Positions 32,973 through 39,373 of a stretch of DNA of 64,000 bases are shown in pieces; position 1 is the first letter of the stretch, and each line of letters opens with the position of its first letter. A model generated the notes under the pieces. It did no database searches and was not told where the DNA came from. It saw nothing but the letters and a program-made list of their open reading frames with translations. A program made the translations under genes and the position numbers. This DNA is from Anabaena sp. UHCC 0187. GTDB lineage: Bacteria; Cyanobacteriota; Cyanobacteriia; Cyanobacteriales; Nostocaceae. The stretch lies in assembly GCF_009712035.1 (NCBI RefSeq), contig NZ_VILB01000011.1:459355-523354 (forward strand), written 5' to 3'.

Positions 32973-33015
32973 GTCTTTAAGTAAGTGGTGTAATTAATCG
33001 AGGAGTGTTAGTTTC

Positions 33016-34032
33016 ATGGCAATTAATTTACAACAAGCAATTGATATTGGTAAGTATCTAGTAACTCAACGTCTATTAGGACGGAAACGCTTTCCCCTGG
33101 TCTTGATGTTAGAACCGCTGTTTCGGTGTAATTTAGCTTGTACTGGTTGCGGTAAAATCCAGCATCCAGTGGAAATACTCAAGCAAAATCTTACCCCAGA
33201 ACAGTGTTTTGCGGCGGTGGAAGAATGCGGCGCACCAGTTGTTTCTATTCCTGGTGGAGAACCTTTATTACATCCCCAAATAGGTGAAATTGTTGAGGGT
33301 TTAATTAAACGCAAGAAATATATTTACTTGTGTACTAATGGTTTATTACTAGAAAAGAGTCTTGATAAGTTTAAACCTTCTCCCTATCTAACTTTTAGCG
33401 TCCATTTAGATGGAATGCGAGAATGGCATGATAAATGTGTAGACAGAAAAGGCGTTTTTGATACTGCTGTTCAAGCAATTCGCGCAGCTAAAGCTAAGGG
33501 TTTTCGTGTCGCTACTAACACTACTATTTTTGAAGGTTGTGATATTCAAGAAATGCAGGGATTTTTTGATTTTCTGGAAACCTTGGGTACTGACGGGATG
33601 ATGATTTCTCCTGGTTATAGTTACGAATGGGCCCCAGATCAAGATCATTTTCTGCAAAAAGAACAAACCCGCGCTTTATTTAGAGAAATTCTCTCACCTT
33701 ACACATCTGGTAAGAAGAATTGGAACTTTAATCACAATCCTTTATTCTTAGATTTTCTCATTGGTGAGAAAGACTATGAATGCACTCCTTGGGGTAGTCC
33801 TAGTTACAGTGTTCTCGGCTGGCAAAAACCTTGCTATCTGTTGAATGAGGGTTACTATGCAACCTTCAAAGAGTTGTTGGATAAGACTGATTGGAGTCAA
33901 TATGGCGGCGCTAGTGGTAATCCTAAATGTGCTGATTGTATGGTTCATTGTGGTTATGAACCAACAGCAGCAATGGATGCTATGCAGCCGAAAAATATTG
34001 CTCGTTCTCTAACTACTGTGTTTGGGAAGTAA
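33016..34032 (+). CDS. hpnH: Adenosyl-hopene transferase HpnH (radical SAM)
   Basis: Adds the 5-prime-deoxyadenosyl group to diploptene, the first step towards extended hopanoids. 338 residues. Seen: radical SAM cluster motif [10 protein letters not shown] near 38-44, [12 protein letters not shown] (GGE motif), [28 protein letters not shown], and a C-terminal Cys cluster [15 protein letters not shown] 33016 is preceded by AGGAG at 33001. Same strand as hpnA. Confidence 0.95.
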
Positions 34033-34298
34033 TCGTCTGAATCAGGATACTCAGGATTAAAGGATGTACAGGATTAAATAGTAGTTAAGTGGTATTTAAT
34101 CTTATTAATCTTCAAATCTAGAAATTCCTGATTCTGATGGTAAAAATATCTGATAGCGAAGCGTGGCGTAGCCATATCAGGATAAAATAATTGTCAGATT
34201 AATCATTTTTTCCTTCTGAAAATTCCTATAGTATTTCTCAAATTCTTGATTCTGATTTTTTAGTTAATCAAGAATAAAGTAAAATACTGATTTCCTAA

Positions 34299-35363
34299 TC
34301 AAGTTAATAAGTCTTGATTAGCTTGATAAAGTTCTTGAACTATTGTTAGCATATCAAATATTAAAAGATTCCAATTATCAATTGATTTAGGTATTAAATT
34401 ATTAGTTTGCTTTGGACGCAAATGAACAATTTGATTTCTGAGGTTACACAAATACTTACTAGGACTATAATTTTGTTTATCAGCATATTGATAATTTATA
34501 TTTATTGAGTCCAGTAGCTTTTTTAAAGAATCTTCTAATTTAGGTTCTAATTTCGTAGTTTCATAAAAATCACTATAGAAATCTTGGACAGATTTGCCTG
34601 TCAATGTCAATTTATCATATTTAAAGCCCAATTTATCATAAAAATCTTTTAAAAAATAGAGAGGTTGTAATCCTTCTATGCACCTATACAAATCCAAATA
34701 AGCAAATTTAAAATCAGAGGCTACATAACTCGCTAAAATATTTTCAAAAGGAATATATTTATTCCCATTTTCAAAGGTACTTTTAAACTCTTGCAATAGT
34801 TCCACACTATATGGTAGCAAACAATAACTATTGTTTTCGGTTAAAGCAATGCCTGTCATTTGATTTAATTCTTCTTTTTGAGTAAATCTGTCAATTATTT
34901 TATATAAAGCAATTCTTGGAAAGAAATCTTTTAGCGTATATCCATTAATTTCTTCCTCAATATTGACTGATTTAAGTTCTTCTCCATTTCTAGTTTTCTT
35001 AGTTTCCCATTCGTTATCCAAAATTTCTTCTAATATTGATATATCCGCATCTTTTTTAATAGATAAGTCTAATTCATCAATAATGACTATCCAAGCACCC
35101 GAATTAAGAGTTTCTTCTTGCAAAAAACTGGGAAATTGAGATGAAAATTCATGATTGATTAATACTAAATAATGAAAATTTCGATAAGTCAGCCAAGCAC
35201 TATAAAAATTAGGAAATAACCGTATTATATTATCAATATTTAGAAATTTCAACCAGTCCATACAAGTTGAATCACCATGAATAGTATAAGTTTCCTTTGT
35301 ATCAATAACATTTGATATTTTTTCTACGACTCTTTTGATTGATATTATAATATTTCTGCTCAT
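34299..35363 (-). CDS. Unrecognised protein with a HEPN-type Rx4H motif
   Basis: 354 residues from ATG 35363 (a longer start at 35405 would overlap the upstream gene and adds a poor tail). I do not recognise the full protein. Seen: a helix-rich C-terminal half with RCIEGLQPLYFLKDFYDKLG and, near the end, LCNLRNQIVHLRPKQ, where Arg309 and His314 form R-x4-H, the hallmark of HEPN ribonuclease-type domains. The N-terminal half has beta segments (WIVIIDELDLS) without Walker motifs. Its start is 4 bp after the stop of the DGQHR-like gene, so the two form an operon. AT-rich composition and isolation between core genes suggest transfer. Function (possible RNase effector) is inference. Confidence 0.65.
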   Translation of the reverse strand: MSRNIIISIKRVVEKISNVIDTKETYTIHGDSTCMDWLKFLNIDNIIRLFPNFYSAWLTYRNFHYLVLINHEFSSQFPSFLQEETLNSGAWIVIIDELDLSIKKDADISILEEILDNEWETKKTRNGEELKSVNIEEEINGYTLKDFFPRIALYKIIDRFTQKEELNQMTGIALTENNSYCLLPYSVELLQEFKSTFENGNKYIPFENILASYVASDFKFAYLDLYRCIEGLQPLYFLKDFYDKLGFKYDKLTLTGKSVQDFYSDFYETTKLEPKLEDSLKKLLDSININYQYADKQNYSPSKYLCNLRNQIVHLRPKQTNNLIPKSIDNWNLLIFDMLTIVQELYQANQDLLT

Positions 35364-35367
35364 AGTT

Positions 35368-36471
35368 TTAGTACATTTTATTCCAACAAACAGCAAAAGA
35401 GTCAATTTCAGGTTCAGAAAAGATCACTTTAAACCCATCTAAAAAAGCTTGTCTATGTTTTTCTTTGGGAATAGAACGTAAGTTTTCTTTTAAAATATCC
35501 AAGGCAAGAAAGTTATAGTTTTGCTCAAGACTCTGACAAACTATCTGAGATTTAAGTCTATGTAGTTTTAATCGTATATCGTGAAAATTACTCTCTATTT
35601 GTGAATAGTCTTTTTCAAGATTACTTCCTAATAAACCAAAGGTTTTTTCGGCACAAGCTACCATAAAACCAACTCTTGCAGTTTGATTATTAAAAACATA
35701 GCGGTCTTCAATTCCTTCAAGTAATTGGTCAATTTCAGTCATCAATATAAATATTTCTTCAAATTTACCAATAGTGTGTACTGATTTCTCCCTAATTAAA
35801 CTCATAATATCTAAAGCTGCATGATATTCAGCTAATTGTTGTTTTTTGTTAATTCTGACTTTTCTAGAAGTAAATGCCAAAAATAACTCGACAATTTCTG
35901 ACTGTTTATATATTTTTTCAGAAATTAAATTCTCTAAATAGGGAATACGATATTTTAAATTCTGCACAATCGGTTTAAAAACTACTTCTAATTGTTTATC
36001 AATTCCCCAAGGAATTTGACCAGAATTGAGTACCAACATTCTATATAATAAAGCATCTTCATCTGGAGCAAACCAAAACTCAACCCTCAAATTCTGAGCA
36101 ATTTCTTTTTGAAGCATAGCATCTTTTAAGGCTTGTATTCTTTGCATTCCATCTAAAATACTAATTTTTTGTTTATTTTGAATTAAATTAAAAAAATTAT
36201 GTTGATCTATATCTTCATAACAAATAATTCCTAATACTATAGGAGGTAGTATTCCACCCTCTTTCAAATCTTCCAGCATTTGATTACGAATAATTTTAGC
36301 AGACCTAGTTTGCAAAACTTCTCTCTGCTCATCAAGGTTGCCTTTTTCTTCATGAATAGGTTTAACAAATTCTATAAAATCAGGAATGCTAACTACTGTA
36401 AGAACAGAGTAGCAATTAAGATTTGTATCTTCTTGAATATCAATTATTTTGAATTTCATAGATAAATCCAT
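35368..36471 (-). CDS. DGQHR/ParB-like protein, first gene of a two-gene cassette
   Basis: 367 residues. Seen: an N-terminal ParB/DndB-like fold with LPPIVLGIICYED (residues 75-88), ISILDGMQRIQALKD (Asp107-Gly-Met-Gln-Arg111, a variant of the DGQHR signature), a beta strand RVEFWF and RMLVLNSGQIPWGIDKQLE near 144-162, all in the order seen in DGQHR-domain proteins. The C-terminal half is helical. Family knowledge: DGQHR proteins include DndB, a regulator of DNA phosphorothioation, and standalone homologues in defence islands. No dnd genes are present here. Partner is the HEPN-like gene 4 bp downstream. Confidence 0.7.
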   Translation of the reverse strand: MDLSMKFKIIDIQEDTNLNCYSVLTVVSIPDFIEFVKPIHEEKGNLDEQREVLQTRSAKIIRNQMLEDLKEGGILPPIVLGIICYEDIDQHNFFNLIQNKQKISILDGMQRIQALKDAMLQKEIAQNLRVEFWFAPDEDALLYRMLVLNSGQIPWGIDKQLEVVFKPIVQNLKYRIPYLENLISEKIYKQSEIVELFLAFTSRKVRINKKQQLAEYHAALDIMSLIREKSVHTIGKFEEIFILMTEIDQLLEGIEDRYVFNNQTARVGFMVACAEKTFGLLGSNLEKDYSQIESNFHDIRLKLHRLKSQIVCQSLEQNYNFLALDILKENLRSIPKEKHRQAFLDGFKVIFSEPEIDSFAVCWNKMY

Positions 36472-36580
36472 ATTTTGTGGTACTCAAATTATATCTTACC
36501 AGTTTATTGACTTACAACTTACCATCACTTGTTATAGTTACTTTTATTCCTAATGCTCTCATAAAATCTCTAACTTTATT

Positions 36581-37072
36581 TCATCCTGCATTTAAATCCA
36601 TCATCATCTCGTAAGTTGCCACACTAAATCCATTATCTTCAAATAGCTTTTTAGCAAATTCGTTTTGTGCTGCAACTTGAAGGATCAATATTTGTGAACC
36701 TAACTGTTTTGCGGCATCTATAGAAGCATCTAACAGCAATTTTCCTGCTCCCCATCCCCGCACCGATTCATCAATATAAATGTCATGAAGCCATGCTGAA
36801 GCTGGTGCAATATCAACCAAACTGCTTTCTTCTAACCGTGTAAATGAGTAACCAACAATTTCATTTTCGACTTCGACAACCAAAACAACTGCTTGGGGAT
36901 TAACAATCTCTTCGGCAAAAAAATCAAAAAGCTGTTGTTCATGATTGGCAAATTCAACAAACCTCAAGGGATTAAAATTTTGATGTTGATGAACAAGTTT
37001 GATAGCGTACTTAATCACGCCTTGATGATCATTTATGGTGGCTTTTCTAATTGTAATATTTGGCTTTTTCAT
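36581..37072 (-). CDS. GNAT-family N-acetyltransferase
   Basis: 163 residues with the full GNAT order: ITIRKATINDHQGVIKYAIK at the start, acceptor strand VVLVVEVENEIVGYSFTRLE, SAWLHDIYIDESVRGWGAGK with the acetyl-CoA pyrophosphate loop RGWGAGKLLLD, and NEFAKKLFEDNGF before the end. Substrate unknown. Monocistronic, opposite no obvious partner. Upstream AGGAGAAAAATG gives a good ribosome site. Confidence 0.88.
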   Translation of the reverse strand: MKKPNITIRKATINDHQGVIKYAIKLVHQHQNFNPLRFVEFANHEQQLFDFFAEEIVNPQAVVLVVEVENEIVGYSFTRLEESSLVDIAPASAWLHDIYIDESVRGWGAGKLLLDASIDAAKQLGSQILILQVAAQNEFAKKLFEDNGFSVATYEMMMDLNAG

Positions 37073-37223
37073 TTTTCTCCTCCGTTTCCAAAAAATACGC
37101 CTCGTTTTTTGACACCAGTATGCGGAAAATAGTTGCCAAAATACTTGGCAAATAAAAAATCATCTGCTATATTGAACTCATACCCAAAAACCTAATCCCC
37201 TAATCCCCTGTCCCTACGGGGAT

Positions 37224-37251
37224 GTAGAGACGTTCCTCGGAGCGTCTCTAC
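37224..37251. repeat. GTAGAGACG hairpin repeat
   Basis: GTAGAGACG and CGTCTCTAC form a 9-bp stem around a 10-nt loop; a well-known cyanobacterial intergenic hairpin, here between gatC and the GNAT gene. Confidence 0.75.
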
Positions 37252-37332
37252 TCTTTTGTAGTGATATTGCAGGAGTTGAGGAGAAAGAAAAAATTCTTGC
37301 CTATATTTCCTATATCTTCAATCAGTTCCTAG

Positions 37333-37623
37333 CTAATCAGCATTAAGAATTTTGGGAACTCGGAAAAAATCACCTTCCTGTTGAGGCGCACTGCTGAGGA
37401 TTGCTTCTCTGTCAGGGCAGGGTTGAAGAATATCTTCTCTGGTGACATTGCTAACATCAATAGCTCTGGTTGTCGGTATTACATTGGTGACATCCAGTTG
37501 ATTTAGTTGTTCTATATAATCCAGAATACTACCCAATTGAGTAGTAAATTGTACTTCTTCATCTGCTGTCAATTCTAAACGAGCGAGATTAGCAACTTTA
37601 CGAACTTGTTCACTATCAATCAT
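37333..37623 (-). CDS. gatC: Asp-tRNA(Asn)/Glu-tRNA(Gln) amidotransferase subunit C
   Basis: Small stabilising subunit of the GatCAB complex that converts Glu-tRNA(Gln) to Gln-tRNA(Gln), the route cyanobacteria use in place of GlnRS. 96 residues, full length: VRKVANLARLELTADEEVQF, LGSILDYIEQLNQLDV, TTRAIDVSNVTREDILQPCP, ending with FFRVPKIL, all canonical. gatA and gatB are not adjacent, as is common in this phylum. Confidence 0.95.
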   Translation of the reverse strand: MIDSEQVRKVANLARLELTADEEVQFTTQLGSILDYIEQLNQLDVTNVIPTTRAIDVSNVTREDILQPCPDREAILSSAPQQEGDFFRVPKILNAD

Positions 37624-37672
37624 AATTTGTCAGTTGTCAGTTGTCAGTTGTTAGTTGTCATTTGTCAGTTGT
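37624..37672. repeat. GTCAGTT heptamer tandem repeat
   Basis: TTTGTCAGTTGTCAGTTGTC and following units (GTTAGTT, GTCATTT, GTCAGTT): about six heptamers between gatC and ycf3. Confidence 0.85.
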
Positions 37673-37705
37673 TAGGCAAAATTGTACAACCGACAAATGA
37701 TTAAT

Positions 37706-38227
37706 TTAAAAGAATACGTCAATTTGCGATCGCCCGGTGGTTTTGATCCAGTTTTGAGCTTCAATATAATTATTGGGAGCCATGCGAATTGCTCTAATCC
37801 AATAATCCGATGCTTGATCAAATAATGCTTCACCACCATCATGATCTCCGGCTTCCTTAGCCTTCTCACCTTGAAAATGATATATTACCGCAATATTATT
37901 CAAGGCTTGGGGTAATTGGGGATTTAACTCAATGGCTTGATGATAATACTCTAAAGCCTTATTATGATCACCATTACTGGCATAAATTAAGCCCATATTA
38001 TAGAGAATATAACTCCGATCATTGGAGTCTTCTTCCATTTCCAGGGCTTCTACATAGTAATCTAGGGCTTCGGCATATTCACCTTCTGCCTGTGCGGACA
38101 TCCCATCTCGGTAGTAAACAAATGCTTCTTTAGCTTTTCGGTTGGTTGGCAATATCTTGAGAATGATATCCGCCATTACGGTAAAGGATTTGTCAACAAA
38201 GTTATCGTTTTTCTGTGTTCTTGGCAT
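37706..38227 (-). CDS. ycf3: Photosystem I assembly protein Ycf3
   Basis: TPR scaffold protein needed for photosystem I assembly at the thylakoid. 173 residues, the usual length. Seen: start [20 protein letters not shown], three TPR units ([60 protein letters not shown]) and the conserved tail [20 protein letters not shown]. High-confidence core photosynthesis gene; a direct sign of a cyanobacterium. Confidence 0.97.
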
Positions 38228-38237
38228 ATTCGCCTCT

Positions 38238-38435
38238 ATGGTTGCTCAAATGAAGCAGGATGATACATTTACGCGATATTTAACCCGGATGTTACCGGAT
38301 AAAATAACGATAGCACTATCACCTGCATCGGTAACAGTGGCAGTATCACACCAAGCTTTTAGGAAAATCCCAAAAGCACTATTAAAATCCTATGGAATGG
38401 AATATCCACATTCAAAATTTGGGTTAATTAATTAA
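38238..38435 (+). CDS. Possible small protein, doubtful
   Basis: A 65-residue frame exactly filling the gap between the divergent ycf3 start (38227) and the cysK stop (overlapping the latter by 4 bp). Contains [20 protein letters not shown] and a basic C-terminal half ([20 protein letters not shown]). No recognised domain, no clear ribosome site. It could be chance or a fragment of a larger gene. Confidence 0.3.
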
Positions 38436-39373
38436 CTCATCAAATCTTGAAACATGGCGGTACTTAAATAGCGTTCACCAAAAGAAGGTTGAATCATTAC
38501 TATTAATTTACCAGCATTTTCTGGGCGTTTACCGACTTCAATAGCAGCAGCTAAAGCCGCACCTGAAGATATTCCTGATAATAACCCTTCTTCTCTAGCT
38601 AATCTCCGTCCATATTCCATTGCGGCTGCGTCTTCAACTTGTACTACTTCATCAATTAAGTCTTGACGCAAAACATCAGGAATAAACCCCGCACCAATAC
38701 CTTGAATTTTGTGAGAACCTGCCTTACCACCCGATAGAATCGGACTATTACTAGGTTCTACGGCAATTACTTGAAAACTCGGTTTCCGTTCTTTAATGAC
38801 CTCAGCAATACCAGTAATTGTGCCGCCAGTTCCGACCCCAGAAATTAAGATATCAACTTCTCCGTCAGTATCTTCCCAAATTTCCTCAGCGGTGGTTTCT
38901 CGGTGAATTTTTGGATTGGCTGAGTTAGCAAATTGCTGCAACATAAAAGCATTGGGAGTATTGGCAACAATTTCCTCCGCTTTGTTAATTGCTCCCCGCA
39001 TTCCTTGAGTACCGGGTGTTAATTCCAAACTAGCACCATAAGCCCGCAACATGGCGCGTCTTTCTTGGCTCATGGTTTCCGGCATGGTTAAAATTAATTG
39101 ATAGCCACGGGCGGCTGCTACCATTGCTAAGGCGATACCTGTATTACCAGATGTGGGTTCGACTAAAATGGTTTTACCCGGTGAAATTAAACCTTCGGCT
39201 TCAGCGGAAAGAATCATGCTTACGCCAATTCTATCTTTTACAGAGGCCGCAGGATTCATGCTTTCTAATTTGACAACTATTCTAGCTACCACTCCCTCGG
39301 CTTGGGGAATTTTATTTAACTGAATTAATGGAGTTTTCCCAATAAGTTCTGTTACGTCTTTAGCAATTCGCAT
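38432..39373 (-). CDS. cysK: Cysteine synthase A (O-acetylserine sulfhydrylase)
   Basis: PLP enzyme making cysteine from O-acetylserine and sulfide. 313 residues, complete. Seen: the PLP lysine in [15 protein letters not shown], substrate loop [22 protein letters not shown] phosphate loop [17 protein letters not shown], and [15 protein letters not shown]. CysK versus CysM: the TSGNTG and GVGTGGT signatures suit the CysK type. Faces ycf3 across a short gap; 900 bp of non-coding DNA upstream. Confidence 0.95.

Follow-up and report, generated by a model that had tools for sequence, protein, structure and literature searches.

Dazbog is a gene pair described as a defense system and represented in PADLOC by the models DzbA (PDLC03835) and DzbB (PDLC03836). 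According to the available parts of three sources, its DUF262 domain likely permits recognition of methylated DNA (PMC10952713), it is reportedly activated by methylases (PMC12409349), and its mechanism was listed as unknown in a 2026 review (PMC12926258). Here we compare with Dazbog and other described systems two adjacent genes, designated A and B, in a 64,000-nucleotide (nt) stretch of DNA ("the window") from contig NZ_VILB01000011.1 of Anabaena sp. UHCC 0187, a genome of 5.1 Mb in 57 contigs. Judged from its sequence, the pair is a divergent relative of the known Dazbog system and not an undescribed system, and it is best read as a third branch of Dazbog in which a DUF262/DGQHR-type sensor would be joined to a HEPN ribonuclease (RNase) effector.

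Two further systems bear on this comparison. PD-T4-2 appears under DUF262 as well as HEPN in the part of PMC10952713 available to us, and Tha-1 of Staphylococcus aureus phage 80alpha, a 301-residue anti-phage RNase whose C-terminal HEPN domain carries R265-N-S-I-M-H270, provides a tested precedent for such a C-terminal HEPN RNase acting against phage, as described in the available part of PMC11087260. HEPN hallmarks, as given in the portion of PMC3710099 at hand, are an Rx4-6H motif ending helix 3, a residue after R that is typically polar, and in many cases an acidic residue conserved in helix 2; some HEPN families sit in operons with ParB-fold genes.

The original prediction placed two AT-rich open reading frames (ORFs) of 367 and 354 residues here, 4 bp apart, and both were found on the minus strand as described. 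Four nucleotides separate the stop of A from the ATG of B, and the guanine-plus-cytosine content is 29.1% for gene A and 26.8% for gene B, compared with 38.0% for the window. An alternative TTG start of gene B at 35405, 14 codons longer, is also open. The signature LDGMQRIQAL corresponds to A106-115 and LRNQIVHLR to B308-316, which bears out the predicted numbering Arg309/His314. No Rfam match at gathering thresholds lies within 33000-38500, and a promoter scan found sites at a frequency not above that in shuffled sequences (20 versus 17.8; standard deviation, 4.5).

35368 to 36471, minus strand: gene A, DzbA-like (P0002), ATG start, 367 residues, DUF262/DGQHR type (ParB-fold-like), with D107-G108-M109-Q110-R111
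34299 to 35363, minus strand: gene B, DzbB-like (P0001), ATG start, 354 residues, candidate C-terminal HEPN-type RNase
34422 to 34439, minus strand: codons of R309-N-Q-I-V-H314 (R-x4-H) in gene B, computed from the start at 35363
34674 to 34688, minus strand: codons of Y226-x3-E230 in gene B, computed from the same start

Homology of the gene pair to Dazbog

P0002 matches the DzbA model with an E value of 1.4e-31 (residues 7-364; profile positions 2-383 of 393) and phrog_27603 with an E value of 9.8e-69. All 52 rows of the A alignment, window protein included, match DzbA (best, 9.4e-63), and D107, G108, Q110, and R111 are unchanging across them. The first protein had been predicted to be DGQHR/DUF262/ParB-like, and this is supported by matches to Pfam GmrSD_N (E, 9e-5; 23.1 bits; cutoff, 33.2) and DndB (E, 0.012; 15.1 bits; cutoff, 29.1), both below the Pfam cutoff; no NCBIfam profile matched at an E value of ≤1. 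Because of the DzbA, GmrSD_N, and DndB matches and the invariance of the four signature residues, the label "DGQHR-like" is fair, with DUF262/GmrSD_N as the nearer Pfam relative. Protein A shares with DndB/DGQHR proteins a variant D-G-x-Q-R signature and differs from them in the weakness of its DndB match and in having a DzbB homologue as its partner; the designation "DndB-type protein" was dropped, since GmrSD_N and DzbA score higher.

The gap from protein B to canonical DzbB was bridged by profile-profile comparison and by PADLOC's own DzbB model. In hhalign, the B family aligned with nine canonical DzbB proteins at 94.1% (E, 1.3e-7), compared with at most 0.5% for 11 negatives, and 35 of the 52 aligned B members match the PADLOC DzbB model at an E value of ≤0.01. 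As A is a DzbA homologue and B a remote DzbB homologue, the pair belongs with Dazbog, and the earlier statement that it could not be matched to a named system no longer holds.

The two genes keep together, as the original prediction had proposed to check. When genome and viral collections were searched with A, 98 loci were obtained, 97 of them unique; of 92 loci in genomes, the best 80 are included. In 92 of the unique loci, the sequence covers the end of A and continues for 1150 nt or more beyond it. A homologue of B lies downstream in 88 of these 92 (full length in 81), in 87 of the 88 within about 60 nt of A as estimated from profile positions. A search of the viral collection with B gave six loci, and every one of their contigs was also recovered with A. 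Among 386 cyanobacterial genomes, relatives of A occur in 18 and relatives of B in 13, and in all 13 A adjoins B; the five A-only genomes have canonical DzbB at an E value of ≤1e-10, a threshold at which none was found in the source genome.

Gene order and similar protein sizes are common to the window pair and Dazbog, and canonical copies occur in the same genus as the window pair. The differences lie in the sequences: window-type A forms its own branch (Shimodaira-Hasegawa-like approximate likelihood ratio test, 99) and canonical Dazbog two others in a quick tree of 51 rows from nine phyla that carries long-branch warnings; window B falls below the PADLOC DzbB profile; and the window family has mostly RN-x3-H, unlike canonical DzbB, which has R[CS]-x3-H in eight of nine cases. 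Because the PADLOC DzbB profile overlooks part of this widespread branch (17 of the 52 members aligned here), Dazbog-type systems may be undercounted, including in bloom-forming cyanobacteria. PD-T4-2 is likewise a phage defense system with a DUF262-type and a HEPN-type protein according to its partial source, but P0002 does not match the PD-T4-2_A model, nor does the source genome match the PD-T4-2_B model (168 positions), at an E value of ≤1. Tha-1 resembles protein B in its C-terminal R-N-x3-H HEPN-type motif and in an N-terminal half without a discernible domain; unlike B, it is mentioned with no DUF262/DGQHR partner in the available part of PMC11087260.

Several loci (labeled L; genomes are labeled G) show further variation. 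Canonical Dazbog in cyanobacteria (L155, L156, L157, L158, L159, and L160) falls into two strongly diverged branches with the DzbB motifs R[CS]LIVH and RCC[IT]AH. In a Lactiplantibacillus plasmid pair (L045, 3692-5796), the first gene encodes a DzbA homologue (E, 7.4e-46) and the second a protein that has no PADLOC or Pfam match at an E value of ≤1 but retains Y-x3-E and R-N-x3-H. B homologues in L116, L117, and L138 have about 200 additional residues, as judged from the profile-match span.

The putative HEPN site of the second protein

A HEPN-type motif had been predicted in the second protein, and its residues are strongly conserved. All 83 second proteins compared (82 unique relatives plus P0001, not weighted for relatedness) carry Y226, E230, R309, and H314; the relatives were recognized through a profile of the same family, by which a diverged relative without the motif could be overlooked. 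Among the 88 unique loci that have a B match downstream, the 82 in which a single match reaches the C-terminal part supplied these relatives; left out were L047, L071, L086, L088, L101, and L105, in which a broken or truncated B stands beside an intact A. The residue after R309 is N in 74 proteins, H in eight, and C in one. Canonical DzbB has all four residues as well, in the same Y-x3-E and R-x4-H arrangement. The rows of the 52-row A and B alignments were chosen from loci whose B had RN-x3-H, and invariance in those B rows is partly by choice.

The C-terminal motif is more frequent than expected by chance. Among ORFs of 300-450 residues, with some genes counted in more than one locus, RN-x3-H at 35-75 residues from the C-terminal end is present in 108 of the 117 B homologues versus 1 of 344 other ORFs, and R-x4-H in 116 of 117 versus 37 of 344. 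An acid combined with R-x4-H is the pattern of HEPN RNases; the residues seen after R fit the typically polar position, and the upstream acid (E230) is found in all 83 proteins. Over 52 B members at an E value of ≤0.01, Pfam matches included HEPN_Apea in four, pEK499_p136 in two, and RiboL-PSP-HEPN in one; the below-cutoff HEPN_Apea match in L041 covers R-x4-H. When 10 B proteins were scanned singly (E ≤ 1), six had HEPN_Apea, RiboL-PSP, Swt1-like, MAE_28990-like, or Csm6 HEPN matches covering R-x4-H, and the PADLOC models Cas13a, Csx1/Csm6, and RTasHEPN each matched one B protein, again across this motif. We consider B very likely to be a HEPN protein.

A number of results weigh against this assignment or against the link to Dazbog. 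Among the B proteins with scores shown, no Pfam HEPN model reached its cutoff; the HEPN-model matches over the 52 members total seven and stand beside three non-HEPN models (one member each); 4 of the 10 singly scanned proteins, half of them canonical DzbB and half window-type B, had no HEPN-named match at an E value of ≤1; a non-HEPN model outscores the HEPN ones in L111 and L113; and the hSac2 model matches L114 at 0.0017. The context of E230 in P0001 is E-G-L-Q-P, without the x3-[KR] of the typical HEPN Ex3[KR], and hhalign of B with HEPN_Apea gave 2.9%, using a shallow cyanobacterial HEPN_Apea set of few, divergent sequences. P0001 itself matches no PADLOC model, DzbB included, at an E value of ≤1. 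A plain hidden Markov model of the nine canonical DzbB proteins found none of the 52 B members at an E value of <1e-3, and hhalign against the two canonical branches separately gave only 19.9% and 6.9%. The stretch aligned at 94% spans 78 columns (218-302), which hold Y226 and E230 and end before R-x4-H. Searches of PDB profiles with the A and B alignments gave chance-level matches only (best E values, 0.37 and 0.31). Finally, A stands without a downstream B homologue in 4 of the 92 loci (L056, L066, L087, and L102), where the ORFs adjoining A look unrelated by eye.

Since the four invariant residues are common to canonical DzbB and the window family, they allow a direct test of whether DzbB is a HEPN RNase, and the signature of an RNA-cutting enzyme in B suggests how Dazbog-like systems may stop viruses. 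A description of DzbB as a HEPN protein was not found in the literature searched; the original description of Dazbog lies outside that search, and the assignment may thus be in print already.

Presence, absence, and decay of the pair

The distribution of the pair is patchy, and the evidence supports its mobility. Two further features belong to the site.

36581 to 37072, minus strand: GNAT-like gene, an optional companion upstream of A, across a gap of 109 nt
34274 to 37106, no strand: segment that two congeners lack at this site (empty site; blastn)

Upstream of A we take the order to be the GNAT-like gene, then gatC and ycf3, with hpnH convergent downstream; these names are presumptive and in part those of the original prediction. 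The GNAT label, likewise presumptive, was given from sequence motifs both there and by us. The gene lies upstream of A in six of nine close-clade loci, the window's included.

The gene hpnH is present in 14 of the 16 genomes of the genus, source genome included. Among the 13 others that have it, G064 and G125 carry the pair beside hpnH, with B in G125 interrupted by about 2.5 kb, and G386 and G387 have a clean empty site in which 34274-37106 (GNAT, A, and B) is missing between hpnH and gatC; in L197 and L199, the blastn match ends at 34270-34273 and the next starts at 37107. Only fragments of a decayed pair are left in G391 and G048, and the remaining seven genomes show neither the pair nor gatC within the stretch fetched. 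Relatives lie on Pantoea, Roseobacter, and Sulfitobacter plasmids typed as conjugative by PLSDB. Phage records gave no tblastn match to either protein, P0001 matched no plasmid, and a canonical DzbA recovered no relative in a viral scan.

Proposed mechanism and its alternatives

We consider it probable that the two genes together defend against phage as a homologue of Dazbog, with B acting as a HEPN RNase that stops the infected cell. Protein A, most likely the sensor or regulator, with its DUF262/DGQHR-type domain, would hold or sense; the trigger upon infection may be phage-modified DNA or the activity of a phage methylase. Once triggered, A would license B, which, with R309, H314, and E230 in a HEPN-type active site, would cut RNA and thereby arrest the infected cell, an abortive outcome.

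A similar arrangement could serve addiction or stress rather than phage defense if B were a HEPN RNase toxin and A its neutralizing partner. The adjacency of the genes, the small size and patchy presence of the unit, and the loci with broken B beside intact A (6 of 92) or broken A beside intact B (1 of 92; L112) would suit such a toxin-antitoxin module. However, the use of A as the query biases how often each gene is seen broken, several of the breaks consist of one frameshift each in a draft contig, and the homologous pair is described as a defense system; we regard this explanation as unlikely. The resemblance of A to GmrSD_N, together with the likely recognition of methylated DNA by DUF262 in Dazbog (PMC10952713, in its available part), would also suit a type IV restriction-like endonuclease pair as in GmrSD, with A reading modified DNA and B cutting it. 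We find this highly improbable, since no DUF1524/HNH was among the Pfam matches of the scanned B proteins, and the only invariant residues of B, Y-x3-E and R-x4-H, form a HEPN RNase pattern.

Equally far from our expectation, if not slightly further, is a three-gene unit in which the acetyltransferase would modify B or the target of B. Its frequent position upstream of A and its absence from G386 and G387, where the pair is missing too, fit this idea, but hitchhiking accounts for them equally well, and no GNAT homologue (E ≤ 1e-5) was found in L048, L050, L163, or the distant loci scanned, some of whose upstream stretches are short. The anti-phage RNase reading could be extended so that all Dazbog systems, canonical and window type, would form one DUF262-HEPN class with a HEPN RNase effector, the window pair would lie in an unrecognized third branch spanning at least nine phyla, and the cyanobacterial GNAT might add control of the RNase by acetylation, comparable to AMPylation in HEPN/MNT; as a whole, this is a very speculative proposition to which we give little credence.

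The source genome holds a second DUF262-type gene (L175, 1213-2328; G000:C53, about 80.6-81.7 kb) that matches PADLOC NsnA at 2.1e-117, and the sequence immediately after it matches NsnB (E, 3.4e-122; G000:C53:81710-83086), so that a further pair known to PADLOC is present; as all 14 control genomes match the NsnB model too, this model is partly unspecific. Two marine plasmids have a gene annotated as a DNA cytosine methyltransferase near their window-type pair (L042, 8131-9288; L043, 8131-9288), and in Moritella such a gene adjoins a canonical-type pair (L202, 1912-3486).
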